Below are positions 10,684-35,404 of a stretch of 64,000 bases of DNA, one piece after another. The notes below the pieces were generated by a model, which did no database searches, was not told the DNA's origin, and saw only the letters and a program-made list of their open reading frames with translations. The stretch's first letter is position 1; each line of letters opens with the position of its first letter. The position numbers and the translations under genes were made by a program. This DNA comes from Bryum argenteum. Its lineage: Eukaryota > Streptophyta > Bryopsida > Bryales > Bryaceae. The DNA is taken from NCBI GenBank assembly GCA_037043015.1, contig CM073324.1, positions 23,948,097-24,012,096 on the forward strand. The letters are read 5' to 3'.

Positions 10684-10875
10684 TCAGTCTTCACCCGCAT
10701 CGTTCTCCTGGTCTTCGTCCTCATCGCCCTCCTCGTGTTCGTCCTCATTGTCCTCCTCTTCATCATCGTCATTGTCATCAGAGTCCGAGTCGTCAATCCA
10801 GACGTTCAAGGACTGCAACTCCGCATTCGTAAATGCCCGACGTGGCTCCAAGTCGATCAGCTTCTTCAGCTCCAT
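10684..10875 (-). CDS. Gene A: small acidic VWIDD-module protein
   Basis: A 63-residue protein of unknown function. The N-terminal 27 residues form a module shared with four other genes in this window: a Leu/Ile/Glu segment, then NAELQSLNVWIDD. The rest is a nearly pure Asp/Glu tail with SDSDD at its start. The ATG at 10875 was chosen because gene B starts at the equivalent codon; the longer frame begins with TTG. A TATA box lies 176 bp upstream of the ATG, and AATAAA follows the stop. The unit thus looks like a complete compact gene without introns. A hydrophobic VWI followed by acidic and Ser residues resembles a SUMO-interacting motif, but that is only a hypothesis. No known family was recognised. 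Confidence 0.6.
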   Translation of the reverse strand: MELKKLIDLEPRRAFTNAELQSLNVWIDDSDSDDNDDDEEEDNEDEHEEGDEDEDQENDAGED

Positions 10876-11049
10876 ATCTAATTGTCTCTCAGCACTCAAT
10901 CGATCAGAAATTCAAAGTGTTGGGTTGCTACTACGGTGACAGTAGAAAACTCTGATTGTTCGAAATACGGCTATGGATCGATGACTATGCCGGCTAGCTC
11001 GCCAGCTCTCAAGTTTCTAGTGCTCTTGATGTAACAAGCTGCATCACTC

Positions 11050-11057
11050 TTTATATA
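11050..11057 (-). promoter_or_regulatory. TATA box of gene A
   Basis: CTATATAAAG on the minus strand, about 176 bp before the ATG of gene A. The region between TATA and ATG shares the words GAGAGCTGGC and CATCGATCCATAGC with the leader of gene B, indicating a conserved 5' untranslated region. Confidence 0.6.
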
Positions 11058-11119
11058 GGCCGGGAGGGGTGGGGGAGGAGATGCTTTTGGCTGGTGCAAT
11101 GCATCCTTTGCGGGGAATT

Positions 11120-11345
11120 TCATGCTCTCGAGGTGAGTGGGGAGCAGTGTTCGGGGAGCCAATATCCTCATAAAAATCTCAACCGGTCTTAGTATTACTT
11201 GGGCCGTTTTTTATGAAATATTTGTAAAGAAATTTCTATTTTATATTCTAACAAGCCAGTTTTTAGCCGACACTTGGACTCTTGGACTGGTTTTTTATGG
11301 AAATCAACCGACCGAAGTGGTCATGCTCTCAAGGTGAGTGGGGAG
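11120..11345. repeat. 24-bp direct repeats upstream of gene A
   Basis: CATGCTCTC followed by AGGTGAGTGGGGAG occurs at 11120-11143 and again at 11322-11345 with one base different. The roughly 180 bp between them are AT-rich. The repeats could mark an old insertion or a local duplication; no terminal inverted repeat is visible. Confidence 0.6.
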
Positions 11346-13797
11346 TGGACGTGTAAACTAGAGTTTGATTGCTTTGGCGTTTTCATCTTTTATATTTTTA
11401 TGACTTCTTATCATGGTTACTAAAGTACACAGAATATGCTATATATGTTCCAAGAATTTGTCATATACATCTGAATTTTTTGTACTTTTAAAATATATGG
11501 AATGTTCTAAAGATGAGAATTAACAAGTACAAAAATTGTGTTTATGATGCACATATACTACTAGCCATAAGTACATAGCCAAAATTTGAAAATACAAGAA
11601 TATTCATGTACCCCGATAACCTTGCTTCCTACTCCTTGAAAAGGCTTAACGGATACTTCCATTCCGTTTCTTTCTACTTTGCAAAGGAGTCACTTCCTTC
11701 GTGAAATAATTCCAAACTTCGTGCAAAGTGTAAGTGTTTCAATTTGAACAACAAAGGGTCACCCACTCACCCCATTTCTCACCCCTTACTCCCTTAGTCT
11801 CAACAAGTGGCAAGCTGGCTAGTTCTATCTCTTATCTAAAATAAGTCTGCGGTAACTCCAGTACATTCTTTTACCAAAAATGGAGGAATGGACTGGGAGG
11901 GTCTGTACAAATGGGCGAGACCCCCTATTGACTGGGCATCGGACTTTTTTGACAATTTTGGGGTGTCAAGTCTACGATAAGCGTTGAGAAGCAAACCTGG
12001 CATTTGACCAGCCCAGAAGGCCACCACCTAAGTAGTCGCCGGGTGGGTGAAGACTCACACAGTCACATGAACTTTACACTTCCCAGACACAAAACCAGTT
12101 TTTGACCTCACCTAACCGCAATTCAGGGAAAAAGTGTAGAGGTGACACCTCCCCAATAGCCGAGGAAAGTATGGTTATTTTTCCATAACATTGCCATCAT
12201 TGGCGGTATGGTCTACCAACTTCTCCACCATTGATCTTTGAGATGAACGGCCATCTTGTGTTATTATGTACTCCCTCTGTCCCATTATAATTGTTCAATA
12301 GGTTCTCTCAAATCTATGGAAGGGGGAGGGGGTTTTATACCCTGTTTGTTTCCACGGGCAATAAATAAGGGATAAATGACTTTTTTTCAATTTATTTGTT
12401 TTGGAGGATTACAATTAAATTATTCTGAAATTCTGAAATTTTGTGTACATTGTTCCATTAAAAATTTATAAATTAAAAATATAATATAGGGTTTTGTTTT
12501 ATTTTTAGCCAAAATTTCATTTTTGAAGAAAGTAACATAGATGAAAATAAAGATAAGTTATTCAAAGCTCGACAATACAATCTTGTAATATACTTGTTGT
12601 AGATCATGTGGACTATTATTGGCCTCTTAGATTAAGATAATTATTCTTTAGTGAGCTACACATCTTACAGCACTCACTCTCATTGAAAATTTTGCTTTTG
12701 GACTGTTTTAACTTGTCCGCATGTGTCCTTTTGTTGCAAGCGCTGGAGTTTGTCCTGAGACTTCTTTTGATGAAAAGGAACTTATCCGGACAATTGAATT
12801 TACATAAGTATTTACATGTAACCCTTAAATGGTTTGACTCATTTGTACAAAAAAAAGCACATTCTCAAAAATAATATCTTCAATGAAAACAATGGTAAGG
12901 TATTTAAATTTCAGCTGTATAATCTTGTGGTAAACATACTAATGATACTATAAATCATCCAAGTCAAATTTTGGGTCATGAGGCCTCAAAGATTGCAGTA
13001 GCATAACTTATTACTAGTTACTCAAAAACATCACAAATTCTTACTATTTTCACTTTAAAGTAAGAATGTTACGAATGGACTTATTGCAATAAAAAAAATC
13101 ATCAACTATGAAAGATGTTAATCTTTATCTCAATGACACCCTTGAACCAAAAAAAGCCATGGAAAAAATTTCTTTGCACAAATAATGGCCTTGCAATAGT
13201 GAAAAGTGGCAAGAATTATACAAAGGAAAATGGTCCAAAACTCAAACCTTTGCACTTGAATCTATTTATTATCTTCAACACATCTTTGATATTGTCAAGG
13301 TATAACCACTAAAACTATACTCTAGTTGGAATTCATCCCAAAAAAAAAGTCAAAATTCAACAGTGGATGAAGGAGATGTAGCTTCTCAAAATCATCCATT
13401 TATCACTGTTGAAACATCATTGCAACTCCAATACCAAAAGTATTTGGATAAAAAATCTTCCAACTAGAAGATTTTGGGCCTTCACCTTAAGATCATGATT
13501 TTGTAATTTTTTTACATTAAAGCATCTTAATCATTTCCCATGATTGCCTTACAATGGTAAAACATGCTTTATGTTTGAAAACTCTAAAACAAGAGCTGCC
13601 TTCACTAAAATGCATGTCATTTATTTATACCTCATTATATGGGTCTGAAATTTTGACCACATAGAACTAAACTTGATTAGGGTCCCAACTCAAGTGATTT
13701 CATCCCATATTAGACTCCGGATGAAAATGTGATGGCTCTTCAATATTTCTGTCCTTCATCCAAAATGTTGTTTTTCACCATTGGTACATTTAGGGCT
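11346..13797. other. AT-rich intergenic DNA, no gene
   Basis: No convincing coding region, RNA gene or structured repeat is seen. Parts of 13020-13500 match 23400-23600 in reverse orientation (AGTTGGAATTCATCC and its counterpart), indicating a dispersed repeat. Open frames here are short and AT-rich. Confidence 0.5.
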
Positions 13798-13802
13798 TAA
13801 GG

Positions 13803-14373
13803 TGTTAGAGAGAGGTTGCTCGTAGTTTATAAGAGCAACTAATAGTTATTAGAATATGATATAGTAAGCAATAGAAGCTAGGTGTTAGTCCTCTAGAGTG
13901 TGTGAAGAGGGCTGGTCCTAAGAGCCTTAGAGAGTGGAGAGAGGCCTTAACCTCTCGGTTATCCCATATTGATTGTAGCACCATGTGCCTACCTATGGAT
14001 ATATCCCCAATTCCGTAAAAATGGCGTTATGCCGCTAAAATGGCACAACTCAACTTTCTGAACTGCGGTTTAAAAACCATGTGATATAATAGAATATGAA
14101 GGTGATATTATGGAAAATGAGTGACAATGTATACAAAGGAGTGATATTATCAAAAAAATTGTGATATTACAGAATACACCATTCCATGCGAGCGCATATG
14201 TAAGATTTGGTGTGACAAAATGGCACATGGCATAGTGCCATTTTAACGGAATTGAGGTTATATATAAGAAAGGGCTTGGAATGAGTATGTATCTCACTCA
14301 AGCATTCATTGCTCTACTTGTTTGTAAGCTTTGATTGTTTGTATTCCTTCTCTCTCTCTATTGAGCTTCAATA
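13803..14373 (+). repeat. 5' LTR of Copia 1, interrupted by a MITE
   Basis: Begins TGTTAGAGAGAGG and ends TTGAGCTTCAATA. It is 571 bp long against 310 bp for the 3' LTR; the 261-bp excess equals a 257-bp MITE (14003-14259) plus a 4-bp target duplication. The terminal TA instead of the usual CA is deduced from the position of the target duplication. Confidence 0.9.
14003..14259. mobile_element. MITE family M4, copy 1 (257 bp)
   Basis: Inserted in the 5' LTR of Copia 1 and absent from the 3' LTR. The inverted ends are CCCCAATTCCGT...AAATGG on the left and, read inward from the right, AACCTCAATTCCGTTAAAAT. The duplicated target is ATAT (13999-14002 and 14260-14263). The exact length difference between the two LTRs supports a 4-bp duplication. 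The interior has several GTGATATTA words, the reverse of the AATATCAC words in the other copies. No coding capacity. Confidence 0.85.
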
Positions 14374-14386
14374 GGTTATGGGCCCA
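14374..14386 (+). other. Primer binding site of Copia 1 (half-tRNA type)
   Basis: GGTTATGGGCCCA directly follows the 5' LTR. It matches the primer site known from Drosophila copia, which pairs with an internal half-molecule of initiator methionine tRNA rather than with the tRNA 3' end. The other Copia element in this window uses the ordinary 3'-end type. Confidence 0.75.
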
Positions 14387-15244
14387 CCACACTTGTAGTG
14401 AGGTTGTGTTGCAACCATTTGGATGTGTTTGGAGGTGATTTGGAGCCATTAGGAGCTTTGAAGGTGCACTTGGTGCTACTTGGAGGTGTGTGCAACCACC
14501 TGGAGGTGTTTGCAACCATTTGGAGCTTTGGAGGTGCACTTGGAGGCATTTGGAGGTGTTTGGAGTTGTTTGAAGGTGATTTGGAGCAATTGGAGGCAAT
14601 TGAAGCACTTTGGAAGTGTTTGGAGGACACTTGAAGGCATTGGAGTATTGTTTGCTTCCCTTGTCTTAGTAAGAGTGTTACTAACACAAGGAGGTGCTGA
14701 TTTGCATAGTTGGCTACCAAATCCTTTGTTTGGAGTGGTTTTTGAGCTCTGGAGTGCTTATTGTGATCAATTTGAAGTGCACTTGAAGTATTGAGGGCTG
14801 AATCTACCATTTGAGGTGCATGTGTGCACACAAAGGGCTGATTTGATCCATTGTGGTGCTAAAGTGCTGATTTGAGACTCCTAAACTTAGTTTTTGAGTG
14901 ATTTGTTGATCTAGAAGCTTCTTTGACATAGATTGAGGGGTGATCTAGTGTAAGGAGTGCACAAGTGCTCATATGAAGCATTGAGGGCTGATTTGAGTGC
15001 TTAGAGGTGCAAATACACCATGTGTGTGTATTAGACATCTAGATCTAGCAATTGGTTGTCAAATAGCTTGAACGAGATGTGATGTGAGTGGGAGCAAGTG
15101 ACTCTTGCTCGTTTGAGTGTTGGGGAGGCTTATTGTGCATTGTTTTGTGCACAAGTGTGTTTGCACACTCCAAGGGGGCTGATTTGAGTCCTTGAAGCTA
15201 GATTTGAGTGCTTGGTGGTGTTAGGGCAGCATTTGTGCTTTGCC
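14387..15244 (+). other. Leader of Copia 1 with degenerate GGAGGT repeats
   Basis: An untranslated leader of about 860 bp. From 14400 to 14640 it consists of degenerate short repeats of TTTGGAGGTGTTTGGAG type. Long frames across it on both strands reflect this low complexity and are not genes. Confidence 0.7.
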
Positions 15245-17500
15245 ATGGCTTCCTCGGAGGGTGAGAGTGTTAGGGTGCTTGAGAAGGTCAATGGCACCAA
15301 CTTCAACTTGTGGAAGTTCAAGATGAACTTGGCACTCGATTCCATGGACTTGTGGGAGATTGTTGAAGGCACGGAGGAGGCTCCACCATCTGATGCAAGT
15401 GACAAAGACAAGAGGGAGTACCAAAGGAGGGTGAGGAAAGCCATGTCCATGATTGGGCTCAATTTGGTGGATGCCCAACTTGCTCACATCAAGAGTTGCA
15501 AAGGACCAGCGGAAGCATGGAGGGTGCTTTGCAGCATTCATGAGATAAGAAGTTTGGCCAACATCCTCTTCTTGAGGCGGAAGTTCTTCACAATCAAGAT
15601 GGAGGAAGGGGCTAACTTGTTGAAGCACATCAACAACATCAAGGCACTTGCGGATCAGCTTGCATGCTTGGATGTGCCCATGAAGGAGGAGGATATTGTT
15701 ATGACCTTGCTTGATAGTTTGCCACCATCATTTGAGCACTTGATAATGGCTTTAGAGACCTTGATCCTTGCTGACCTCATTATGGAGTTTGTGGTGTCAA
15801 GGTTGATGCATGAAGTCTCCAAGAGGAAGGAGAAGGGTGCTCAAAGTGGTGAGGCAGCGTTGGTGGCAGCCCAAAACAAAGGGAGGATGTCAAATGAGCC
15901 AAGGTTGTGCTACAATTGTGGCAAACGGGGCCACTTTGCAAGAAATTGCTTCGAAGACAAGAACAAGAAGGATAGTGCCAATGTTGCAAGAAACAAAGAC
16001 AATGAGGAGGATTATGCGTTCCTAAGCGCCGTTGTTGCAAGAAATGAGGAGATGTGGGAGGAGCATGCCTTTGCTAATGGAGATGGAGATGACAACACCA
16101 TGGCCAAGTGGATCATGGATTCGGGAGCCACCAAGCACATGTCACCTCATAGGGCAGCATTCCAAACATATGAGGTAATATCACCACCACGCAATGTGCA
16201 CTTGGGATATAATAGAATTGTGCATGCGGTTGGAATTGACACTATTGATGAAGAGGTGATGGTGATGGGAGTGAAGCACAAGATCAAGATAACGGAGGTG
16301 CTCCACATCCCCAAGTTAAAGAGGAACTTGATCTCCGTAGCTAAGCTTGCTCTAAAAGGTTTGAAGGTGGCGTTTGATGATGATGCATGCATTGTGAGGG
16401 GAGCCAATAGGAAGGTGATTGCTAGATTGCCTAGAGTAGGGAGTTTGTATGAAATGCCCTTCACCATGCATGAAATGGCCCATGTGGCAAACAAAATGTC
16501 AAAATCAGCTCCTGTGGACCGTTGGCATAGAAACCATAGAACCTCAATTCTGTTAAAATGGCACAATTCCTTGTGCCATATTGCCAAAGCCATGTTGTGC
16601 CAATTTGGTCGCGTTTCTGAAACGTGCCATTTTACCGGCATATTTTTGAACTCAAAAATCAAAAATTTATGCTTGCAAAATGGCACTTTTTTTAATATCA
16701 CCCACATCTTCCATTATATCAACAAATTTCTGTAATATTATCAAAAATTCCATAATATCACACTATTTGATGAATTTTGACCTTCAAATTCTGTCGTAGG
16801 GCAGTTTTTTCTCAACGGCCGCTCAAAAATATCTCTGGTTTTGAGCGGCCGCTCAGAAAAATTTGCTCTATTATGTCAAAAAAATGACAAAAACGAGTGT
16901 TGTTTTTTTCATTTTTTCCACCTTAAATCGTGCCATTTTACCAGAATATTGCCAAATTAACGGAATTGAGGTTATAGGCATTTAAATGTAAAAAGCGTCA
17001 AGGCCATTGAAAGCATGGAGAGTGACATGCAAATCAAGTGTCGTGACGAGGTGTTTGCCGAAGAGGTCACTTGTGAAGATGCAAATGTGGAGATGCATCC
17101 AAGTGGGAGTTTGGAGCCACCTACGGTGATTATGGTGGATGCGCCTCCAATTTCAGCGCGCTTTATACAAGAGGCAAAAGTTGGAGAGGAACCAAATGCA
17201 ATGCAAGAGTCACAAGAGACACAAGAAGAGGGGGTGGTGCAAGAGAGTCAACCACCACATGAGGAGATACGAGAAGGGCAGCGTGCACATAGCTCAAGGT
17301 ACCTAAGAAGGGAGAAGTGGCCACTTGGTGAGTGGTGGTTGAATCACATTTTTCCACCAAGCAAAGAAGTAGAACATGCAAATGTAGCTTCTTTTGATGA
17401 ATCTTTGAGCTTGGGTGATGCTTTGCAAAGTGTGGATGCAAGCAAGTGGGAGTTGGCCATGCGAGAGGAGTATGCATCTCTAATGACCTATGGCACATGA
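15245..17500 (+). pseudogene. Copia 1 gag-protease frame, split by a MITE
   Basis: The ATG at 15245 (MASSEGESV) fits the start of Copia gag; a longer frame would use a non-ATG codon. In order come a gag (UBN2-type) domain, a CCHC zinc knuckle (CYNCGKRGHFARNC), the aspartic protease motif DSGATKHMS and the start of the pre-integrase region (WHR). A MITE interrupts at 16540. After it, from 16978, the frame resumes with the pre-integrase sequence (HLNVKS) and then the acidic linker before RT, ending at DASKWELAMREE and a stop at 17500. MITE plus target duplication measure 438 bp, a multiple of three, so before the insertion the frame was continuous and about 605 codons long. Integrase core and RT are missing. 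Confidence 0.85.
16540..16973. mobile_element. MITE family M4, copy 2 (434 bp)
   Basis: Ends AACCTCAATTCTGTTAAAAT and, reversed on the right, AACCTCAATTCCGTTAA, flanked by ATAG on both sides (16536-16539 and 16974-16977). It sits in the coding region of Copia 1. The interior shares GCAAAATGGCAC, CTGTAATATTATCA and TTCCATAATATCACAC with copy 3. Confidence 0.85.
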
Positions 17501-17678
17501 GAGTTAGCTCCTTTGCCAAAAGGCCACACGAGTGCTAAAGCATGGAGAGGTGAACTTGTGGTGTTACCCAACGGAGGAGATAGTGGTTGGTGTGTTGATG
17601 AAGAAAGTTGCTAAGGTGGGCACTAGAAGATTACAATGTGATGGGATGGCGAGATGGAAACTACTCGCAAAGTGGGAG

Positions 17679-17988
17679 TGTTAGAGAGAGGTTGCTCGTA
17701 GTTTATAAGAGCAACTAATAGTTATTAGAATATGATATAGTAAGCAATAGAAGCTAGGTGTTAGTCCTCTAGAGTGTGTGAAGAGGGCTGGTCCTAAGAG
17801 CCTTAGAGAGTGGAGAGAGGCCTTAACCTCTCGGTTATCCCATATTGATTGTAGCACCATGTGCCTACCTATGGATATATAAGAAAGGGCTTGGAATGAG
17901 TATGTATCTTACTCAAGCATTCATTTCTCTACTTGTTTGTAAGCTTTGATTGTTTGTATTTCTTCTCTCTCTCTATTGAGCTTCAATA
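17679..17988 (+). repeat. 3' LTR of Copia 1
   Basis: 310 bp, TGTTAGAGAGAGG to TTGAGCTTCAATA, preceded by the purine-rich tract AAAGTGGGAG (17669-17678) and followed by the target duplication TAAGG. It lacks the MITE present in the 5' LTR. The RT-region remnant at 17501-17668 is short and carries stops. Confidence 0.9.
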
Positions 17989-17993
17989 TAAGG

Positions 17994-18324
17994 GACATTC
18001 TTTTGCTACTGAAAATGCAAAAAAAAAATAGTAGTCACAACCATTAAATTAAATTGATCTATTTACGGCAAAAGCATCCACTTGCTCTAAATAATTGAAA
18101 ATTGGAATCTATGGGATGTGAAAAGGTAAATATCACTTCAAGCACTTTAGAGCCCTATTAGAGCCTGAGAAATGGGAGGTCAAAGTTGAGAACCCAACAA
18201 AGGTCGGCATGCCTTTTTGTAAGACTATTGAACACCAAAATTTGATTTTAGTGTTGAATAGTCATTCATAAATGTATGACTGCTAAATAGGAAGAATGCA
18301 AAATGACTACTATTTTGCAAAAAT
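17994..18324. other. AT-rich spacer, nothing recognised
   Basis: No gene, inverted repeat or tandem repeat seen between the Copia 1 target duplication and the minisatellite. Confidence 0.5.
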
Positions 18325-18600
18325 ATAACCATGGTTGTGTTTTGAGTGATTTCAAGCACAAAGAATGAAAAAGATGACCATGTTGTGTTTTGAGTGATTT
18401 CAAGCCCGAAGAATGAAAAAGATGACCATGTTGTGTTTTGAGTGATTTCGAGCACAAACAATGAAAAAGATAGCCATGTTGTGTTTTGAGTGATTTCGAG
18501 CACAAACAATAAAAAAGATGACCATGCTGTGTTTTGAGTGATTTCAGGCAAAAACAATGAAAAAGATGACCCTAGTGTCTTTTGAGTGAGTTCAAAAGGC
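18325..18600. repeat. 48-bp minisatellite, about 5.5 copies
   Basis: Units contain TTGTGTTTTGAGTGATTTC followed by AAGCACAAAGAATGAAAAAG, with 5-15% variation. Because 48 is a multiple of three, the minus strand stays open and reads a 16-residue repeat (EITQNTTWSSFS type). There is no start context or domain to suggest a real protein. Confidence 0.9.
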
Positions 18601-18886
18601 ATGGTCTACCTAGAATATCTCAAATATCTTCGACTCAACGAGCCAACACCATAAAAATGATTTTAACTTTCATGGGTCCTGGTTTATAGTGTAAAGGACC
18701 CTCATATCAATTTTGTAATAGTGCAAGTTGGTTCTAGGGAGTAACAAGGATAGAGATGAAATATTGTAACGAATGGTACTACAAGGTACAAGGTACTCAC
18801 GATTCTATCGGGAAATGTAATAATCTCGCTATTCACTTAGGTATCACTACAGAGCTTTTTCTTCACATGGCCCCGTAACTTGAATG

Positions 18887-19559
18887 AACCTTAATTTCAT
18901 TAAAATGACGGTATTCTTTGTGCCGTTTTGCCAAAACCCAGATGATTCAGTTTAGTCGTCGTAACATGTATTTCGTTATAATGAGAATATTCAAATCCTC
19001 ACTTCAATGACATTTTAGCTTGAATCGAGCTAAATGGCCCACAGATTAGGTACTTCACTGGACAAAATAACCAGTCACCGATATTTTTAAATGGTCATAT
19101 CTTACTCAAATTTCGTCCAAGTTAGGCATATGAGGTGTTTTTTGGCATCTACTCTGTATGAAGTACCCAATCTGTGGGTACATTTAGCTTCACTTGAGCT
19201 AAACTGTATTTCCCAAAATTATTGAATATTCCTATTATAACAAAATACGTGTTTCTTCCGAAACGTGTCATTTTACAAGCATATTTTAAAACTCAATCTT
19301 ACAAATATTTATGCCTGCAAAATGGCACGTTTTCTTGGATCACACACGTCTTTCATAATGTCAATGAACTTCTGTAATATCACCAAAAATTCCATAATAT
19401 CACACCTTTTTTATTGTTTTTAAATCGCCGTTTGGAAATATTTGTCCTTTCATGTCAAAAATTGACAAAAAAAAAACCAATGTTATTTTTTTCATTTTAA
19501 GCACCATTCCCAAAATGCACCATTTGACGGAATAAGGCCATTTTAACGTGATTGAGGTT
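18887..19559. mobile_element. MITE family M4, copy 3 (673 bp)
   Basis: Ends AACCTTAATTTCATTAAAAT and, reversed on the right, AACCTCAATCACGTTAAAAT. The interior matches copy 2 (GAAACGTG, GCAAAATGGCAC, TTCCATAATATCACAC) but is longer. The flanks TGAATG and TATACC show no target duplication, and the termini are more diverged, so this is an older copy. It abuts the start of duplicated cassette B. Confidence 0.7.
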
Positions 19560-20763
19560 TATACCTCCCATACTGCAACCTCCTCCTCCGATAACGAATG
19601 CTCTTCCGAAGTAAGTCGGTTGGAGAGTAAAAGTTTCCAGATCCGAGACTCTACGTACGATGATACATCAGCATTTGCATTGAAGGCCCTTTTCGGGGAA
19701 ATTAAAAGAAACACAATATACAAAGGAGTTAAACATAGGGACTGCCTAACTAGAGGTGGCCCAGATTGCTGCATACATCAGCATTTGCATGGACGGGGAG
19801 TCGGGACTCGGGAACCACCTCAATTCCGATCCCCAGCTCTCTGACATCATGGTCCGATACAACATGTTCCGATATGCTATTTCGGTTGGGAATCTCTACA
19901 GTAGTTCCTCTACAGTCGTGGATTTCTGGTGGGCCTGGGCTCTGTCGGAGGCTTCTCTTTGACACGAAAGCAGCATGTACCTTTTTCTCTCAACTTCCTT
20001 GCAAATCCCTTTCCGGGGTGATTGAGAGTGACAAAGTTACATGCAAAGAGAAAGAGCAGTTGAAGCAACTTTCACACAGTGGAGTTCTGAGGCTAGCTTT
20101 TCTAAGACAAACTGCCTACAGGTCAACCCTTTTTCTCTCAACTTCTGAGTTCGTTTGTAAGCGTGAGAAGGAAAGGACAGCATGCACAAACATTCAGTAA
20201 AGCTTCGTGTGTTCTGCTATCTGCCTCCGACTCCTCACTTCTATTCAAGAAAGGCTAAACTCCGATAGAGTCTTCCCACTTAAACTATACATTCCGGTTC
20301 GTTCTGTACTTCGGTAAGCAGAAAGTGCAAAATACTCTCTCTCAAACTCAAGAAAATGCCGCAAGAAACCATGTTTTTGGTGCAACTCAGGAACAAGAAC
20401 AGATTGCTACCTGCAAAGGATGGCCGTCGTCATATTAAGTGATACTTTGAAAGCAGTACAGAAAGTTGACTCAAGCAAGCTGATTAGAGCTCTACTACAC
20501 TCCTGCAGCAAGCAACTAGTAGATCAAATCTGCTTTCGAGCTACAGACCTGTACTACTAGCAAAGTTCAAATTAAATCGACGACTCAAAGACTCGCATGA
20601 GCACAATTCTGAGCAAATTCCTGACTCGCCAGCAGACAGCGTGCGATACTCCGCTGGTGAGGAACCAACCAAGGTCATGTCTCGCCTTCAATGACCCCGA
20701 TTTCTCCCAGGTTCCCTATCTTTCAGCTCTCGAATGCCAGATACTGCTCTTGACTAACTTCTG
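19560..20763. repeat. Left flank of duplicated cassette B
   Basis: Diverged copy of 9561-10660 beside gene A, in the same orientation. Shared blocks include TTCCGATATGCTAT, GGTGGGCCTGGGCTCTGTCGG and ATGCCGCAAGAAACCATG. Open frames do not correspond between the two copies, so no gene is called. Confidence 0.7.
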
Positions 20764-20769
20764 TTTATT
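20764..20769 (-). terminator. Poly(A) signal of gene B
   Basis: AATAAA on the minus strand 18 bp after the gene B stop, in the context TGTCAATAAAC that is also present after gene A. Confidence 0.55.
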
Positions 20770-20786
20770 GACAGGCGTTTCGATCA

Positions 20787-20999
20787 TTACTCATCTCCAG
20801 CATCGTCCTCCTCGTCTCCTTGCTCGTCTCCCTCCTCGTCTCCTTCCTCGTCGTCTCCGCCCTCATCGTCCATCTCCTCATCGTCCTCCCCATCATCTTC
20901 ATCAGAGTCCGAGTCGTCAATCCAGACGTTCAAGGACTGTAACTCAGCATCATTAAACACCTGACGTTGCTCCAAGTCGATCAGCTTCTTGGGCTCCAT
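20787..20999 (-). CDS. Gene B: small acidic VWIDD-module protein
   Basis: A 70-residue protein, the closest relative of gene A. It opens with MEPKKLIDLE, continues with DAELQSLNVWIDD and then SDSDEDD, and ends in about 45 residues made almost only of Asp, Glu and Gly. Start and stop positions, the 5' leader words, a TATA box 168 bp upstream and a downstream AATAAA all agree with gene A. The coding sequence has stayed open while the flanking cassette diverged, which argues for selection. Function is unknown. The charge would suit a nuclear or chromatin-binding role or an activation domain, but this is inference only. Confidence 0.62.
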   Translation of the reverse strand: MEPKKLIDLEQRQVFNDAELQSLNVWIDDSDSDEDDGEDDEEMDDEGGDDEEGDEEGDEQGDEEDDAGDE

Positions 21000-21166
21000 A
21001 TCTATCTCTCGGTACTAGATCAAAAATTGAAAGTGTCAATTGCCACTAAGCTGACAGTAGAAACCTCTGATTTTTCGGAAAGTAGCTATGGATCGATGAG
21101 AGATGAAGCCGGCCAGCTCTCGAATGCCAGACAGTGAGTGCGTTTGACTGAACACGGTGCACGCTC

Positions 21167-21172
21167 TATATA
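21167..21172 (-). promoter_or_regulatory. TATA box of gene B
   Basis: GTATATAGAG on the minus strand, 168 bp before the ATG. The leader shares CTCTCATCGATCCATAGC-type sequence with gene A. Confidence 0.6.
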
Positions 21173-21187
21173 CAAATTTGAATATCC

Positions 21188-24779: not shown

Positions 24780-27700
24780 CTTTTTTAGTTCAAAACCATT
24801 CAATAATATTTGAAGATAAACGTACTTAACTAATAACATTTTTTTTTGAACAATGATAAGAAAGGAATGGCTGAATCAACCTTGTCATTGTCTTTATACA
24901 AAATATACACATTAAATATGAGTAATAAATCATACAAGAATGTAATATTCTAAATATTAATCCTCTAGAATATATATAATTTAATACCAACTATGAGTTA
25001 TAACAATCCTACAACCCTAAGAATTCTTTTATATATACTTTGAGACTATTTAAGACTACTCCAAAAAAGATGTTGCAAGCTCGTGCAAAGACGCCTCCAT
25101 GATTTCTATCTCCTTCCTGGGTATTGTAATAGTAGCATCTACCACTTGACTACTATCCACATCAACTTGCATAATTCTTGATTTCCAAGCTGTGAAAAGA
25201 ACATCTATATTTATCGAATATACATTTACATCTCTCTCAACAATCCAACAAAGCTTTTAATTTGCATCTCAATTTGTATAATATTTTTGAACTTCTCTAT
25301 ACCGTGATAATGCGGAAAATTTGGATTTTGACCGAACTGGGTAGGTTAAGGTTCAAATTTGGATTAGACATATCTCGTCCCCACCGAAAAGGACAGTAAT
25401 TGGAGCCGCATGAACGTAGTGCAATAAAGTAATCTTTGTAAATGTCACTTTCAACTCCATATGAAAGAGCATGACGCTCACGTCTATGGCCAAACGAAAA
25501 GAAGCACTTTCTCAAAACAATTCTATAAAACACTGTGATTTGATCCCAAGTTCCCAACGCCTTTTATGGATTGCAATTCTAATCATTTTTGACTACACAT
25601 GCACATTTCAAACTTTTTCTTTGCAAAAACTGCATTCAAAAGGCAGTTCGAGGTACTTCTGTACCCCACTCTACAGCACGATACAACAACAGAATGAAAT
25701 TAATCTTTTATTTCCAGTAAGTAGCAGTATCTCCGGAGAAATCTCACGTGGAAAACATAGTATTGACACCAGTATTGGGAAATGTGAAAAAAGTAATGTT
25801 TTGTTTCGATAAAAAGAAAGAAAGAAAAAACTCTTTTGTGTTTTTCCCCTCCACCTCAGCCTTTTTAGCAACGCAAAACGCGTTTCCAGGGTGGCACACG
25901 GCACTGTAGCGTCAACCTGCGGAAGCTCCCCTCGATGGCTCCTCCGATACACAAATAAATACCGATACTTCTCATTTGTTCTTTTTTTGTTTCCTTCAGG
26001 AAAATCGACGTCGAATAGTCTGCATGCTGGGATGGTTGTTGCAGTGAGGGAGATTTAATGAATTAGCTCACTGACAGCCAATCGAGCACATTTGTTCCTC
26101 CTTATCAGTACACTGCCCTCCGATATCACGTTCCGATGAAATCAAAGAGTAAGACAAAAGTATGACGGCCTCACCAGCTGCTCCTCGTCTGAAGCTCAAA
26201 AGTATGGTCGAGGCGAAAGTCACAAAATTAGTGGTGACCTCAATTCAACGAACTTTGGTATCTTCGGATGAGCTCCCATCAGATTACTCTGATTGCGTGA
26301 GAAATGAGGAAGAGCTCCTGAAAGAGTCTGTTTTTATGAAACAGTTTCACATTAATGACCCAGTTTCCCTCTCAAATTGAGCATTATGCCTTTTATGCTG
26401 TGGGTATGCCTCAGAAAATTGAGTGTATTCCAAATGGAAGTAGTGAATAAATATGATATATTTTTATTACATTTGCGGTTAATAGGGCTTCATGGAGTCT
26501 TGACTTCCATGGGGAAGGCTCAAATTCCAGCTCATTGTGTGTGGTTTGCTATCTGGTGAGTCTGGCCATAGATGACTAAACAGAGGCCCCTTAAACTATC
26601 GGAGGAATTACTGTTTTCTACTCACACGAGATGAGAATAAGATGAATTGATACGACTTTACGAACTAAGTACGAACTCAATCGAAACGACTGACTCTCCC
26701 GTTCGATTCAGAGGCAGGTGTGCACCTCCGGTGAAGGTTTCGATTTCACTCTCATTCAATGCACAAATTCCTACGCATTCACTTTGTCACCGTCACCACT
26801 GAGATAATCTTGTCAGACACTAAACAGAAAGCAGCCACTTCTCATTTCAGAGACAAGTACTCAACTTAATTCACAGTTTCACTCTTGTTAATGACAATCA
26901 AGAGGTCTGCATTCGCTCTAGAACAATCATGAATGCAAAAATAAAATCGCTTTCTCTATTGATATGCCATTGTCAGAGTGAGTCTTTTAGGAGTACGTAC
27001 ACGTACAAAAAGTTCCGACCTAGCTATGGTGAACAGAGCTCCTGCTAAGAACTCTGCCACAAACTAATCTACTGACAGTTCCTTGAAAGCTCCAGGGAAA
27101 TTCGACTATATAATTTGCAGTCATGACCCACTTTTCGCTAAATCCTGCAATTTCGGCCACAAAGCTCATTCAACCAGAACGAGGCAGGGGAAGATCATGC
27201 CCCGAGGACGTGACATATCAGCTCCTAGCTCGTCTCCATTCATCTTGAACCACAATACAACTTCTTTCAGAAATATTCACGTCGTCTAACTGGAAGAGCT
27301 TCCATCTTCTGCGAAGCAATTCAGCCGTCTCCTTCTTCGTCATCCTCAGTTCGGGCCAGCGTCCTCAATCTTCGATCCAGACATTCATGTCGCGTAAGTC
27401 AGTATCACTGAGTGTTAGACGCGCGTCCAGCTCGACGTACTCCTCGATGGTGTCCATGCCCCCTCCGATCCAGACATCTAAAGAGCGTAAATCAGCTTCA
27501 GTAAATCGAAGACTTGGCTCCAGCTCCATGAACTCCTCGATGGGGTCCATGAATCTGTAGTTCACCTAATGGAAGAGAGAAACTTGACAGGAGCTGAGAA
27601 GGAGTGTCTGATCAATCGAGCAACCTCTGAAGTTCTAGACACGGATAGTGCAATCGAGGCTGAGCAAGGAATGGACAAAGAGCTCTGTTTACATTCATGG

Positions 27701-28260
27701 GCCGGAGTCACCTGGAATGGTACATTTATGGGTGGCAGAAGTCCGATAATTGGCCATGGAACGGGTCCGATACAACCTAGACTATGTAGGATGAGCTCCA
27801 ATACTTGGTCATCGGACGGCTCCGATACAACTGAGCAAGTGTAAGTTGGGGAGCTGCTGGGTCCGTGAGTTTCCCGCTTCGACTCCATTCCGATATACTA
27901 CCAGAGTTTGTGGTGAGCGCGCGCTCCCACTTGTAGGTTTCCATGAATGTGCGAGTGGAGTTGTCTCAAGAGCTTCGGAGTCAGTGCAGTAACTTAGAGT
28001 TCGATCAGTCTTGTACAATTCCACTTGTACAATTCCTTCAGATATGGATGAAGCCACTAAAGAGGATTGATTGAGGAGCACGTGGATTGTTAGCTTGTGT
28101 GCGATCTGATGTGAGAGAGCTCCTCCGATGACCGATAGTCGGGTCGGGTGGGTAAGTCAAGCGTCCTGTTTTATCAGTTTCTTTTGGAATTTTGGAATTT
28201 CCAGAGTCCAATGCATACTACCTTTATTCTGCCATCTTTGTTTGATATGTTCGCCATAAA
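24780..28260 (-). repeat. Right arm of giant inverted repeat, carrying cassette C
   Basis: Inverse of 21495-23220. Positions 24780-25955 pair with 22020-23220, and 27690-28260 pair with 21495-22015. The intervening 25956-27689 holds gene C and its cassette and has no partner in the left arm. The outer part (27560-28170) also matches, in direct orientation, sequence after genes D and E (for example 35480-36000), so the arm is partly built from the same duplicated unit. Confidence 0.8.
27365..27550 (-). CDS. Gene C: two-module VWI protein
   Basis: A 61-residue protein with the module found in genes A and B present twice: EADLRSLDVWIGG, then DTDLRDMNVWIED at the C-terminus. The ATG at 27550 matches the start of genes D and E; the longer frame would begin with GTG. 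The preceding ACTACAGATTC is shared with gene E and might be a splice acceptor or simply leader. After the stop, sequence that would encode acidic residues (DDEEGDG) persists in another frame, as if an acidic tail like that of A and B had been lost. The TATA position carries only a degenerate ATGTAAAC. Function unknown. Confidence 0.55.
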   Translation of the reverse strand: MDPIEEFMELEPSLRFTEADLRSLDVWIGGGMDTIEEYVELDARLTLSDTDLRDMNVWIED

Positions 28261-28959
28261 GTCGGCGTGGGATTGGCAAGTTGTGCAGTCGGTTGAATAT
28301 CAGGTGCTGAGGCTCAGAAATGTCCCAGCCTCCCTATGACCTTACTCTCCGATATCATATTCTGATAATACAATTGTAAAAAAAATTTATATATATGCAT
28401 ATATATGGTTACTTATATAAATAAATATCTTTACTCATTTGACTGAGCCGCGTGTCAAAACAGAAACAGAAGTGAAATTTGCTGGGCTGTAGGCCCGTGA
28501 CATAAAAGAGGTGTGACTGCAAGAATGATGTCTTCAGAACATATCCATCTTGCTGCTCATTGGAAATAAAACCGATATATTCTAAAGCCGATAAGTTGCT
28601 ATAGACATTGTACATTAACAGGAGACAGTTAGAACTTCACAATTCTATGATACTGATAGTATTTTCATGTTTTTAACCCCCAAAGCTAACTGAGAACAGA
28701 TTCTGTCCGATTTGGCTTTTGTCAGCCTCTTGTTTTCTAACTTAGTTCACATGAAGTTTAAAACCTTTTGCAGGTTGAAGAGTTTTTCCATACCTTTTTA
28801 GGACATATTTGCCATCAAAGTTTGAAAACACTATTTCAAATCTGCCCAAATTGTGGTACATGCTCACTTTTTCTCAAAATCTGCCCAAAGTCAATTATGT
28901 GAACATGATTGGGGTAAAGACACTATTTTGTCATCCCACACTAAATATAATCTTCAGTG
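28261..28959. repeat. Copy of a dispersed segment between cassettes C and D
   Basis: Resembles 36415-36790 and 45690-46040: the blocks CTTGGCAGATTGTGCA-type, TCTCCGATATCATGTTCT and GACATAAAAGAGGTGTGACTGCA occur in the same order. An AT dinucleotide-rich interval lies at 28386-28430. No gene is seen. Confidence 0.6.
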
Positions 28960-31141
28960 TAGCTAGAATAGTGTATGGTTCCACTTGTTAGTTCAGTGAA
29001 GCTTGGTACATGGCTTGGTACCTTCGGAAGCTCCTCCGATACCTGGATATCGATATTTTTCTTTCGTTTAATGTTTTCTACGAAAAATGCAACGTGTATT
29101 AGTCCGCAAGCTGGGTCGGTTGCTGCAGGAAGCTTTATCAGCTCACTCCAATTAAGCAAATCCGGTCCCGTGCACTCCGATATCACGTTCCGATGAAATC
29201 AAAGAGTAGTGGATATCGGAGGCCTCACGAGCTCCTCATCGTCGAAACATAAAGCGTGGTCAAGGAGAAAGTCACAAAATTGCTGACACTCAACTCAACG
29301 AAGTTCGACATCTTTCGATGAGCTTCCGTCAGGTATTACTCCGATTCCATGAGGAATGAGAAAGGTTCGTAAAATTTCTATTTCTCATTCTGAAAGTTTC
29401 ACAGGTCTTAATGATTCTTTTCCTTTCATATTGAGCAATTTTGCTTTCATAATGTAGGTAAATTTCAGAAGATTGAGGGTAGTTTGAGTAGAACTTTAAA
29501 ATGGATACAGTATATCTATATTTTATTATTTCAGATTGAAGATTGGGCTACAATGCTGAGTCTTGGGAAGGCACTCTTTCCAGCTCAGTGTGGTTGGCCT
29601 TCTGGTGAGCGGGGCCCTAGATGACGAAGCAGAGGCCCCACAGCCTATCGGAGGTTTTACTCTTTTCAACTCACAGAAGATAACAAAAAGATACACTTTA
29701 TACAGCATAACGAATTGTGCATGAAACAACGGACTCTTATGTAAGTTGGATTCTAAGGTAGGTGTGCTCCTCCGCTGATGGCTTCAAAATCCAGTTTCTT
29801 TCAAAGCACAAACAACTACATAATTACTTTTTCACCCTCACCACTGAGATTATTCGCCATGACTTGAGAAAGCAGCCATTCATGATTGCAGGGACAAGTT
29901 TTGAACTCCTAAAACCGACTCGAGTTCACAGCTTCACTCTTGTTGATGACAATAAAGAGATCAAGACTCGCTCTTGTAGAACAATCTTGCAAAAACCAAA
30001 TTGCATCCTCTATTGTACTTTCATCGTCAGGGTTAGTGACTCTTTCCAGGAGCGAACAAAAAGTTGTGACCTAGCTATGGTGAGCAGAGCTCATGCTAAG
30101 AACTCCGCCCCAACTATTCTACAACTCCTTAGAAGCTCCAGCTACAACTAGAAAAAGACAAGCCGTCTTGATAATCTGCATTGCCATGACTCACTTTGTG
30201 CTAATGCCTGCGACAACGCTAATTCAACCAGAACGAGACATTACATTATATAGCAGGGGACGATACGCCGAGGAAGTGACTAATCAGCTATGGTCAATAC
30301 TTGAACAACCAGTTCAACTTCTTTCAGAACTCACGTCAGGACTCTAAGTGGAAGAGATTCCAGCAGTTCAGCCCTCTCCTTCCTCGTCATCCCCCCTGCC
30401 AGCTTCCTCATTCGTCGTCCTCGACTTCCTAGTCTTCGATCCAGACGTTCACGTCGCGTAACTCAGCATCACTGAATGTTAGACGCGCCTCCAGCTCGAC
30501 GATCTCCTCGATGCTCTCTCCCTCCTCTTCGACATCAATCCAGACGCCTATGTCGCGTAACTCGGCATCATTCAATGTCAGAGGTGCGTACAACTCGATG
30601 AACTCCCCAATGGTGTCCATGAACCTGTATTTCAGGTTGAGAGCAAAGGTTCAGAACTTAGCTGTAGACCAACCAGAGAGGCAGAGACTGATTTTCTCAA
30701 AAGGAAAAACTTGACAAGTGCTAGTGCGACCACTAACGTTCTAGACACGGAGAGTGCAATTGAGGATGAGCAAGTATGGATTTGGCAGAGAATGGGCAAA
30801 GTGCTCTGCTTAAATTAAGAGTCGCCAGGAAAAGTGCACTTCATATCGGTCACAAGACTCCGATACCGAGCCATCGGATAAACTATTACAATACAATACA
30901 AAGTCTATTATACAATACAATACAACTATTATGCAATTTGTGGTATGAGCTCCGATACTTGGCCATCGACCGGGTCTGATAGACTTAAGCACATGTGTGC
31001 CGATTAAGTGCTGCTGGGGCAGGGGCTTGTCGGCTTCGACCCCATTCCGATATTACCAGAATTGTGACAAGCAGGTCTACCTAGCCATGGGGTGAACGCG
31101 CGGGCCCGCTTGTAAATTTCCGCGATGGATGTGCAAGTGCA
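28960..31141. repeat. Duplicated cassette D
   Basis: A direct duplicate of cassette E (33312-35840) and, more diverged, of 25956-27689. It starts with TAGAATAGTGTATGGTTCCA and includes GATATCACGTTCCGATGAAATC, GTCACAAAATTGCTGACACTCAA, AGAAAGCAGCCATTCATGATTGCAGG (two words) and the gene D coding sequence. Homology with E stops near 31141, where about 1.47 kb of unrelated sequence intervenes before it resumes near 32616. Confidence 0.8.
30429..30620 (-). CDS. Gene D: two-module VWI protein
   Basis: A 63-residue protein starting MDTIGEFIEL. Module 1 ends NDAELRDIGVWID and module 2 ends SDAELRDVNVWIED at the stop; a Glu-rich linker (VEEEGES) joins them. Nearly colinear with gene E. Codons after the TAG stop would continue as EVEDDE in the same frame, so the acidic tail of genes A and B seems to have been cut off by a stop mutation. 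TATA is degenerate (TTAATTTAAGC about 200 bp upstream). TATCGGA or CATCGGA words are present further upstream (30860-30970). Function unknown. Confidence 0.55.
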   Translation of the reverse strand: MDTIGEFIELYAPLTLNDAELRDIGVWIDVEEEGESIEEIVELEARLTFSDAELRDVNVWIED

Positions 31142-32310
31142 GTTAACCCCTAATTCTCCGATGCGGCAAACCTGTCAAAAAAGCCTCAGAATTGTTGTTT
31201 TTCATTGCAGTGTGAAGCTTTTGAGTCTGTAACGGTGGGATCTAGTACATAGCTTGTATATCTATACGTACCTCAAATCTAAGATTCAAATTCCTTATTG
31301 TTAATGAGATCATATTAATGTTCAAAGATAGAAAACATTTCTTTTACCAGTTGCTAAATGGGATTCAAGTGTTTCGTGAGCCAAAAAAATCAGTTTAAAG
31401 AGTAAATTTGAATTAACCCTTAAATGCCCTTGGGGTCTGAAATGGGCAGCCTAAAATTGGATCACAGCATCTTTTGGACTTGGGCATCATGAATAGTGCA
31501 CTTTTTGAACTTGGGCATTGTGAATGAACCAATCAATGATGAGCTTGCAACCTCCTACAAGGTTATGTACCACCCCAACCTACCTACCATAATCCTTTCA
31601 AAGCACAAAATCACTCATACAAATTGTGATTTGAATTGTCAAATCTCACTTTTCCAATACATCAGAAGAAGGTGACCAGTTTGACATCAAAATATAAGTG
31701 AAAAGTTGGTACAGTGAGAGCTACAGGGAAGATTCAGTTGGAATCAAGCCCCTCGGGCTTGCTTGGGCGTTTAAGGGTTAAGGCTCCTTATTCCCAAGTG
31801 AAATGGGATCAAGTCTGTAGGACCTTTAAAACCTAGAGAAATGCTTGATGTTTGCTGAAATTCACATACAAAGGCCCATATTCAACAATAGAAATGGCAT
31901 ATGAAGAATAATTGGATTTAAGATCCCGTGAGATTGTACCTTAGAACCTAATGTACATGTACAAAAAACAAAACTTCGATATGTTTTTAAAATGCCTCAC
32001 AATCAAAGTTTGAAAAATCTATTTAAAATGTATCCAAAATTGCCCAAACTGCGGTATATGCTCATTTATTCTTGGAATCTGCCCAAAATTAATTAAAACA
32101 AAAAAAATTCAAAAATTCATCAAAATTTGAGAATTTACTATTTTTCAATTTTTGTTTTTTTCACATGTAAAAAAGGTAGTAAGGCATGGTCTCACCATTT
32201 GAATTTTCAATCCAAGAATTTTTTTAATGTTTCAAAGTGTCATGCACATGAAGAACTCCATCAGTCTCGAACTGTCATGCACAAGATAACTTCTTCAGGT
32301 ATGCGGATGA
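31142..32310. other. Sequence interrupting cassette D, no gene
   Basis: About 1.2 kb of AT-rich sequence with no open frame of note and no terminal repeats recognised, ending at a Harbinger-type MITE. The interval 31960-32060 resembles 28790-28870 and 36950-37030 (CAAAGTTTGAAAA, GCCCAAA), a short dispersed repeat. Confidence 0.5.
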
Positions 32311-32615
32311 GAGCATCTCCACCCATACTCGCTAAAGGTGACTCAGTCTCTAAAAATGCTCATCTATATTTGAAAAGCCCTTGAAATCACACTCCCCCAC
32401 CCTTAAAGGCTCCTCAAGCACCAAAAGTGCATGTGAAATAGTCATGCACCAATAGCAAGTAGAATGTCAGATTTAGTCAACTAAACTTAGATTTGGAGAG
32501 CCATTTCTTGACGCGCCATAGTAGAGAGTCAAGAGACATTTTTGAAGGGCCCTTAGCATTTTTCATCCACTTATTGCGTTTGTCAGACACTGGGCGCGTA
32601 GGGGTGGAGATGCTC
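32311..32615. mobile_element. Harbinger/Tourist-type MITE, 305 bp
   Basis: Inverted ends GAGCATCTCCACCCATACTC (left) and GAGCATCTCCACCCCTACGC (right, reversed), with 3-bp target duplication TGA (32308-32310, 32616-32618). A GAGCATCTCC terminus and a 3-bp duplication fit PIF/Harbinger MITEs of plants. No coding capacity. Confidence 0.8.
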
Positions 32616-32746
32616 TGAAGCCACTGGAGAGGATTTATTAACGAGTTAGTTTGTGTGTCACTCCGATAAAGAGACTGAGCTCTTCCGATGTCCGATAGTT
32701 CGGGCAAGGTGGGTCAGTCATGTGTCTAGTTCCAACCCAATTGACC

Positions 32747-33018
32747 GGATCCTTGTATTTCATTGCTACGAGCGTTTTTCGGAGCCTCCATCAACCAATA
32801 GGATTTTTTCTTCAGAATTTGTGGATTTCTCCATTTGGACCCCCCGGCGGCTGTTTTTGATAATTTTGAATTCAAATTTGAGGTCTGCGACCCCAATATT
32901 CCCCATAGAAGCCCACTCCTTGGCATTCAATGCCTATACATCAAAAAACTAGGGGGCTTATTAGCCATCCCCTCCCTGCGCTCCGAAAAACGCTCGTAGT
33001 TCTAAAATACAGAGATCC
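32747..33018. mobile_element. Mutator-type MITE, 272 bp
   Basis: Imperfect inverted repeats of about 40 bp: the left starts GGATCCTTGTATTTC and contains CTACGAGCGTTTTTCGGAGC; the right has the same in reverse. The 9-bp target duplication CAATTGACC lies at 32738-32746 and 33019-33027. A 9-bp duplication with long inverted repeats is typical of Mutator elements. No transposase inside. Confidence 0.85.
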
Positions 33019-33027
33019 CAATTGACC

Positions 33028-33311
33028 TGCTGCAGTCTTTATTTGGATCTAGCTACGAAAGGAAGTGACAAGGAAATAAGTGGGCGAACAAGTGAAATCT
33101 GAACTGGCTGATACGTCTGGCACTCTGGCCTATTCGTGCCAGAAGGATATAGAGAAACATGTGAGGTCACATGAATATCAACTGAAGGAATATTCTGGAG
33201 CGGAGATAGAAACTCGACCAGATCACATTTACTTTCCCAGATGAACACTCGGCGTTTTTAATTTCCTTCTTACCTGGATGCCTTGAGACCCTGGTCATAA
33301 AAGTGTATTAA
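33028..33311. other. Short spacer, nothing recognised
   Basis: Between the Mutator-type MITE and cassette E; no gene or repeat identified. Confidence 0.4.
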
Positions 33312-33382
33312 CTATTAGCTAGAATAGTGTATGGTTCCACTTGTTAGTTCAGTGAAGCTTGCTACATGGCTTGGTACCTTCA

Positions 33383-33778
33383 GAGCATGCCCAGCCCGCA
33401 CTGCAGGCCGGAGCATGGAGCCGGATATGAAGTGCCAGGGGCCCAGCCCACACACTAACCCGGTAACCCGGTCAAGAGGGTTGCAGTACCCTAAATTCTA
33501 GCCCACTAAAACTCCAAGTTATCCCCTGCCTCCACTCAAGTTTTAGTGTCCCCTTTAACTAATGAGTGAGAGCCACGTGGCAGAAATTTCATTGGCAAGA
33601 AATGATTTCTAAAGAAAGCTATGAAAAGTGGAATGTGAGGTGGTGTGATTGGTGGGTGATTAGTGAGCGGGCCCTGCCCTCCGTGTTGGGCTGGGCTTCG
33701 TAACCCCGGACAAGCGGCGCCTTTCGCATTTTGGGACGGCCTTGCGGGCCGGCCTGCCGTAGAGGGCTGGTCATGCTC
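33383..33778. mobile_element. Harbinger-type MITE, 396 bp, in cassette E
   Basis: The site is uninterrupted in cassette D (TTGGTACCTTCGGAAGCTCC). Inverted ends are GAGCATGCCCAGCCC and, reversed on the right, GAGCATGACCAGCCC; the target duplication is TCA (33380-33382, 33779-33781). The termini resemble those of the MITE at 32311. The ends are GC-rich, the middle AT-rich. Confidence 0.8.
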
Positions 33779-35212
33779 TCAGAAGCTCATCCGATACCTG
33801 GATACCGATATTTCCATTTCGTTTAATGTTTTCCACGAAATAAGAAACGTGTATTAGTCGGCGTGCTGGTTGGGTTGCTGCAGGGTGCTTTATCAGCTCA
33901 CTCCAATCGAGCAGATCCGGTCCTTCTTTCTATACACGTGCACTCCGATATCACGTTCCGATGTAATCGAAGAGTACTGGATATCGGAGGCCTCACGAGC
34001 TCCTCATCGTCCAAACATAAAGCGTGGTCAAGGAGAAAGTCACAAAATTGCTGACACTCAATTCAACGAAGTTCGACATCTTCCGATGAGCTTCCGACCG
34101 TCAGGTATTACTCCGATTGCATGAGGAATGAGAAAGGTTCGTGAAATTTCTGTTTCTCATTCTGAAAGTTTCACAGGTCTAAATGATTCTTTTTCCTTTC
34201 ATATGCATATTGAGCAGTTTTCCTTTCATGATGTAGGTAAATTTCAGAAAATTGAGGGTAGTTTGAGTAGAACTATAAAATGGATACAGTAATAACAGTA
34301 TATCTATATTACATTTTTCAGAAAATTGGGCTACAATGTTGAGTCTTGGGAAGGCACTCTTTCAAGCTCAGTATGGTGGGCCTTCTGGTGAGCGTGGCCG
34401 TAGATGACGAAACAGAGGCCCCATAGCCTATCGGAGGCTTTACTCTTTTCAACTCACAGAAGATAACAAAAAGATACACTTTACAGAGGATGACGAACTG
34501 TGCATGAAACAACAGATTCTTGTGCTGGAGTCCAAGGTTGGTGTGCTCCTCCGCTGATGGCTTCAACATCCAGTTTCTTTCAAAGAACAAACTACTACTT
34601 AATCACTTTGTCACCCTCACCACTGAGATAATTCGCCATGACTTGAGAAAGCAGCCATTCATGATTGCAGGGACAAGTTTTCAGCTCCTAAAACCGACTC
34701 GAGTTCACAGTTTCACTCTTGTCGATGATAATAAAGAGGTCAAGACTCGCTCTAGAACAATCTTGCAAAAACCAGATCGCATCGTCTATTGAACTTTCAT
34801 TGTCAGAGACTTTAGTGCCTCTTTCCAGGAGCGAACAAGAAGTTGTGACCTAGCTATGGTGAGCAGAGCTCCTGCTAAGAACTCCGCCCCAACTAATCTA
34901 CAGCTACTTAGAAGCTCCAGCTACAACTAGTAATTAAAAGACAAGTCGACTTGATAATCTGCATTGCGATGACTCACTTTGTGCAAATTCCTGCAACAAA
35001 GCTAATTCAACCAGAACGAGACATTACTATGTGTAGCAGGGGATGATACGCCGAGGAAGTGACAAATCAGCTATGGTCAATACATCGATATTGAACAACA
35101 GTTCAACTTCTTTCAGAAATCACGCCTCTCAGTGAAAGAGATTCCAGCAGTTCAGCCCTCTCCTTCCTCGTCAACCCCACTGCCAGCTTCCTCATTCGTC
35201 GTCCTCGACTTC

Positions 35213-35404
35213 CTAGTCTTCGATCCAGACGTTCACGTCGAGTAACTCAGCATCACTAACTGTGAGACGCGCGTCCAGCTCGACGAACTCCTCGATACTC
35301 TCTCCTTCCTCTTCGACATCAATCCAGACGCCTATGTTGCGTAACTCGGCATCATTCAATGTTAGAGGTGCGAACAACTCGATGAAGTCCTTGATGGGGT
35401 CCAT
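35213..35404 (-). CDS. Gene E: two-module VWI protein
   Basis: A 63-residue protein starting MDPIKDFIEL, with NDAELRNIGVWID (module 1), linker VEEEGES, and SDAELLDVNVWIED ending at the stop. It differs from gene D at about ten positions without any frameshift, which suggests that the frame is maintained. It has a good TATA box (TATATAT, 35565-35571) about 161 bp upstream of the ATG. As in D, potential acidic codons follow the stop. Function unknown; no known domain recognised. Confidence 0.58.
   Translation of the reverse strand: MDPIKDFIELFAPLTLNDAELRNIGVWIDVEEEGESIEEFVELDARLTVSDAELLDVNVWIED

Follow-up and report, generated by a model that had tools for sequence, protein, structure and literature searches.

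Five open reading frames sharing an acidic module

The window, a 64,000-nucleotide stretch of the Bryum argenteum genome (C4:23,948,097-24,012,096), contains five short minus-strand open reading frames (ORFs) with a common acidic module. This raises the question of whether they belong to an undescribed gene family maintained by selection, or whether their frames are incidental to repeated DNA. Translation from ATG to stop resulted in 63 residues for ORF A (10684..10875), 70 for ORF B (20787..20999), 61 for ORF C (27365..27550), 63 for ORF D (30429..30620), and 63 for ORF E (35213..35404), in agreement with the initial annotation of the locus. The module layout that it described was also observed: A and B encode a single module and an acidic tail, preceded in A by DSDSD, and C, D, and E encode two modules, with the tail absent. 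The pattern proposed for the module, [DEA][ED]Lx4VWI[DEG], fits seven of the eight modules but not the second module of C, which has a T at the first position. A scan of all six frames of the window identified seven occurrences of this pattern, every one of them inside ORFs A to E, and when the window was simulated 100 times with a first-order Markov model, neither the strict pattern nor a version with its first position relaxed appeared. Judged from their sequences, the five ORFs are homologous.

Distribution of the family across the genome

The genome assembly (258.8 Mb in 25 contigs) was searched with D, the B module, C, the module of copy K, and one unit of copy L as queries, and the fetched stretches were then subjected to a local profile search with filters off. 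Among the best-scored candidates, the family includes at least 12 loci in three clusters, located on C4, C6, and C3; as the search ranks the best candidates only, more distant copies may be missed. The locus had been described as a cluster of five genes; all five ORFs are present, and the two other clusters bring the family to at least 12 loci.

The C4 cluster consists of A to E and lies entirely in the window. The C6 cluster includes the tailed, single-module copy F (C6:1,850,126-1,850,284, plus strand) and two minus-strand copies, G (near 1,849,100) and H (near 1,856,000). Both G and H are without an ATG, and their first module is interrupted by a common 14-base gap; they were therefore called pseudogenes. 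The C3 cluster includes three tailed, single-module copies on the plus strand, namely I (C3:2,713,103-2,713,261), J (C3:2,717,201-2,717,380), and K (C3:2,738,306-2,738,467), as well as the minus-strand copy L (C3:2,725,705-2,726,475), where three head-to-tail units of module and tail, each starting with its own Met, are fused in one frame of 256 residues. Both the tailed and the two-module types are present on C4 and C6, and the tailed type alone was found on C3. Given that both types are shared by C4 and C6 and that the cassettes of these two clusters align at about 70% at best, both types probably predate the C4/C6 split. The copies would have spread through tandem and segmental duplication.

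Repetition in the window extends beyond the ORFs and covers whole minus-strand cassettes. The cassette with A (10030..10984, 955 bp) aligns at 78% with the cassette with B (20129..21099), and the cassettes with D (29024..30629) and E (33779..35413), each about 1.6 kb in length, align with each other at 89%. The cassette with C (25938..27564) is more divergent, at 68% to those of D and E and 70% to C6. Genome searches with cassette DNA identified the D cassette at four further loci among the best-scored candidates.

Since entire cassettes of about 1-1.6 kb recur in a region with Copia and MULE remnants, they could be copies of a mobile element or of a structural RNA, with frames that are incidental. 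This reading is considered very unlikely. Cassette DNA was found at at least three loci for the A type and at least five loci (six matches) for the D type, all of them in the C4 and C6 clusters. The window had no match in Rfam at gathering scores, and no transposon-family match in Pfam was obtained for the nine family proteins scanned (the five from the window and four relatives). A match to a known transposon protein, which the initial annotation had named as evidence against genes at this locus, was thus absent from Pfam, and no dispersed high copy number was observed among the best-scored candidates. Additionally, when A and B were aligned to I, J, and K by BLAST, the matches started no more than six bases from the ATG and extended only a few bases past the ORF.

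Architecture of the module, tail, and upstream blocks

The module spans about 26 residues, with a core of approximately [IVM]xL[ED]x6[DNE][AT][DE]Lxx[hydrophobic][NDG][VC]W[IL]. It is present in one copy per protein in A, B, F, I, J, and K, in two copies in C, D, and E, and in three fused copies in L. Every tailed protein (A, B, F, I, J, K, and L) has DSDS after the module, a sequence that resembles a CK2 site, and then a tail rich in D and E. A terminal AG[ED] with one further residue before the stop is common to A, B, F, K, and L and absent in I and J. The net charge of the proteins ranges from -14 to -33, and reaches -104 in L. The tail of A corresponds to a 24-bp tandem repeat in the DNA, and the tail of B is repetitive as well; as both are partly simple repeats, their acidity may be a by-product.

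The frames of C, D, and E end right after VWIED, and acidic-coding DNA carries on downstream of their stops; this DNA can be aligned with the tail of G and H on C6, which is in frame there. Based on this alignment, apparent remnants of the acidic tail were located on the minus strand at approximately 27305..27364 past the TGA stop of C, 30369..30428 past the TAG stop of D, and 35153..35212 past the TAG stop of E. A module followed by an acidic tail appears to be the ancestral layout, from which the tail was apparently lost in C, D, and E. Upstream of the ATG, the tailed copies A, B, F, I, J, K, and L have short blocks in common, including one resembling CACTTTGAATT, and a further block, CATCGATCC, is present in A, B, F, I, and J. 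The sharing of these blocks suggests a common promoter or leader among the tailed copies.

Selection and maintenance of the reading frames

The initial annotation had proposed that the frames were kept open by selection. Codon models were fitted by maximum likelihood (iqtree2, GY+F1X4), where omega = 1 was tested on the same topology over a grid of eight kappa values. Five overlapping sets were analyzed, with P values uncorrected: omega was 0.454 for nine tailed units (P = 0.008 against omega = 1), a set that includes both A/B/F (0.274, P = 0.038) and the six C3 units (0.357, P = 0.0095); 0.579 for all 15 modules (P = 0.007); and 0.597 for C/D/E (P = 0.14), which is indistinguishable from 1. 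In pairwise tests on modules of just 28-34 codons, a Fisher P below 0.05 was obtained in two of 21 comparisons (18 between the tabulated units and three within C, D, and E), for B/F (0.031) and I/L2 (0.037). The D/E pair, with six synonymous and ten non-synonymous differences, had an omega of 0.41 and a Fisher P of 0.08. Mismatches fell at third codon positions in 20 of 37 cases between A and B (P = 0.007), 13 of 26 between A and F (P = 0.058), and eight of 16 between D and E (P = 0.13).

Conservation of the ORFs was compared with that of their flanks in 60-base bins. Between A and F, the ORF bins ranged from 0.81 to 0.85, above most flank bins. Between A and B, the 3' flank was conserved at 0.83-0.97 (one bin at 0.75) up to +840, exceeding the ORF at 0.75-0.88; between D and E, the 3' flank at 0.87-0.98 up to about +1500 equaled the ORF at 0.88-0.97. 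On the 5' side of both pairs, conservation fell away within 100-200 bases. Because the 3' flanks of A/B and D/E are conserved as much as the ORFs or more, much of the similarity in the window can be attributed to recent duplication or gene conversion. Similarity inside one cluster can overstate selection, and the evidence for selection comes from the distant clusters.

All eight gaps in the ORF pairs A/F, I/K, and J/K were multiples of three, compared with eight of 65 gaps in the flanks of six tailed pairs; only ORF pairs with more than one gap were counted, as two open frames that differ by one gap must differ by a multiple of three. Maintenance of the frames was also assessed by neutral simulation without indels, which assumed equal base rates, took F as the ancestor, and treated L as one unit. 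All seven tailed frames remained open in none of 20,000 runs, and again in none of 20,000 with branch lengths halved; these counts are indicative only, as the simulation ignores the picking of loci by their frames. When limited to the first 33 codons, the seven tailed loci were all open in two of 20,000 runs. Taken together with the omega estimates, these results support the maintenance of the tailed type by purifying selection, as far as sequence comparison can tell. The proposal of selection is therefore upheld for A, B, F, and the C3 copies, largely through copies outside the window, and is unproven for C/D/E.

It may then be that only the tailed copies are genes, and that C, D, and E are decaying duplicates with frames left open by recency and chance, a reading whose chance we would place just short of even. 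The omega of C/D/E fits such decay, as do the tail that each of them appears to have lost, the pseudogenization of the related G and H, and a D/E 3' flank that is as conserved as the ORF. Arguing against it, all three frames stayed open in just 79 of 20,000 neutral runs, a count that likewise ignores the picking of loci for open frames, and the ORF of C differs from those of D and E by one 6-base gap, which is a multiple of three by construction.

Searches for known families

No Pfam match above a curated cut-off was found for the nine family proteins at E up to 10, and many sub-threshold matches fell in the acidic run. The best of these were F to the VEFS-box (PF09733, E 0.002) and D to DUF1127 (E 0.0068). 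The VEFS-box of polycomb proteins was rejected as a candidate: the match of F (18.4 bits over 44 residues) does not reach the cut-off of 23 bits and spans only positions 10-53 of the 137 in the profile, and B scored 10.4 bits, again below the cut-off. The family presumably resembles the acidic segments of the histone chaperones FACT and YL1, where an aromatic residue stands beside a long D/E run; however, YL1 was matched by F at an E of only 4.1, and no Pfam match above cut-off was obtained.

Sequence searches of the PDB at E up to 10 returned nothing for D or for a profile of the seven tailed sequences. The family profile gave 44 pattern matches in viral contigs and five in bacterial and archaeal contigs, and no relative was confirmed among them. 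In the literature searched, no paper was found with the string LNVWIDD, and none joining SMAP1, Selaginella, and acidic. As the initial annotation had stated, no described family was recognized for the nine proteins in Pfam, or in the PDB for D and the tailed profile, and the family is undescribed as far as the Pfam, PDB, and literature searches reach.

Comparison with subunit 9 of the COP9 signalosome

The nearest lead was subunit 9 of the COP9 signalosome (CSN9, also CSNAP/MYEOV2; SMALL ACIDIC PROTEIN 1 and 2 in plants), which is alike in size (57-72 aa, from the PDB match below and passages of PMC11106232), in strong acidity, and in apparent disorder. With an SMAP1 sequence as the query, a single SMAP was found in the genome, at C4:11,497,465, as the sole match at E up to 10; its frame aligns with subunit 9 of the COP9 signalosome in PDB 9qo0 (E 2.7e-6). 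The resemblance of the C3 copies to this SMAP covers K[PL]SDAD and the residues after it, where K[PL]xDAD leads into hydrophobic, aromatic, and acidic residues: L has KPSDADLLTFNCWLDFPDSD and K has KLSDADLLTFNCWIDGPDSD, compared with KPSDADFFNDFEDDFDDTD in the SMAP.

The family could accordingly consist of diverged and amplified relatives of this acidic subunit, acting as its mimics or competitors, which we consider unlikely. In its favor, the local alignment score against the SMAP was reached by few shuffles for some copies (five of 2,000 for L1, eight for L2, four for D, and 13 for E) and by 19 of 2,000 for the score summed over ten family sequences. CSN9 is likewise described, in passages of PMC10355216, as tiny, disordered, and docking through its C-terminal stretch. 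However, six of the ten sequences taken alone were at 369 of 2,000 or worse (A 1,604, B 1,222, F 1,250, C 1,538, I 369, and K 797), a profile comparison with hhalign gave an E of 0.12 and a probability of 0.5%, and the six codons of the KPSDAD stretch common to the SMAP and L are all different. The SMAP1 query recovered the true SMAP and no family member at E up to 10, and the candidate was picked after the fact.

The MYEOV2 profile (PF15004) was not among the matches listed at E up to 10 for the nine family proteins; this profile is insensitive for plants, as Arabidopsis SMAP1 itself scores only 10.8 bits against a cut-off of 27 bits. The C-terminal SMAP block ADFFNDFEDxFDDxD is present in the SMAP of this genome and absent from the family, which instead has DA[DE]Lxx[LF]N[VC]W[IL]D. 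The family further differs from CSN9 in its additional acidic tail, its many copies, and a motif that is near the N-terminus or repeated, and the genome keeps one separate true SMAP. As the similarity is marginal, membership in CSN9/SMAP is not claimed, and SMAP is treated as an analogue and a weak lead to homology.

Predicted structure and a proposed mode of action

An AlphaFold model of D, built from five sequences, had a mean pLDDT of 46.7 and a pTM of 0.29, and included a single six-residue helix per module (residues 18-23 and 51-56) at low confidence. The model hints that D may be largely disordered. Starting from the observed sequences, their homology, the copies, the maintained frames, and the omega of the tailed type, we see about an even chance that the family consists of small, apparently single-exon genes whose expressed products would be largely disordered, strongly acidic proteins that dock to a partner through a tryptophan motif, with the tailed type under selection and the two-module type decaying or re-used.

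Under this docking model, a short helix starting at DAEL and the hydrophobic block VWI or CWL would hold the peptide in place by sitting in a groove on a partner that is basic. The acidic tail would add electrostatic binding, by analogy with the docking of CSN9/SMAP1 or of acidic histone chaperones. Passages of PMC10355216 describe the C-terminal part of CSN9 as packing in a groove of CSN3/CSN8, where its bulky hydrophobic residues are buried and the positive groove faces its negative charge, and CSN subunits are reported in part of PMC3968751 to be enriched in SMAP1 immunoprecipitates. The two-module type (C, D, and E) would have lost the tail and would now be decaying or being re-used. A more specific proposal is that these are lineage-specific, duplicated acidic micro-proteins, derived from or convergent on the acidic subunit of the COP9 signalosome, which would tune the control of cullin ligases by means of one to three copies of a docking motif anchored by tryptophan; we regard this as improbable.

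If translated, the family would represent an undescribed plant protein family where related genes differ in having one, two, or three modules, and a compact case of a short acidic docking motif being duplicated, truncated, and lost. The proteins closest to it in function would be those acting on histones or on the COP9 signalosome.

Neighboring features of the three clusters

Several other features were identified around the clusters. In the window, the C4 cluster adjoins a DUF247 gene at 37535-38989 on the minus strand, which is one uninterrupted frame (PF03140, E 4.7e-40) of a family that the Pfam description assigns to plants. Plus-strand frames of the Copia retrotransposon type (gag, Pol_BBD) are located at 15188-16735 and 40761-44786; the calls were made by Pfam for 15188-16735 and 40761-42095, and by reading ORF translations for the remainder of the second stretch. 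The region at 51423-54499 on the minus strand is composed of separate frames, of which 53006-53587 scored 26.2 bits against a MULE transposase with a cut-off of 27.6; no Pfam match at E 0.001 was found for 51423-52979 and 53588-54499. A tandem array at 18319-18595 includes 5.8 copies of a 48-bp unit with 89% matches. An element of about 370 bp at 31413-31781 is probably a repeat, with copies at 77-92% identity around both other clusters. The C6 cluster adjoins two very similar histone H3 frames, one of which was scanned with Pfam, and is also beside a frame that matches F-box beta-propeller and kelch families weakly. A CHX-type cation/H+ antiporter is encoded near the C3 cluster.
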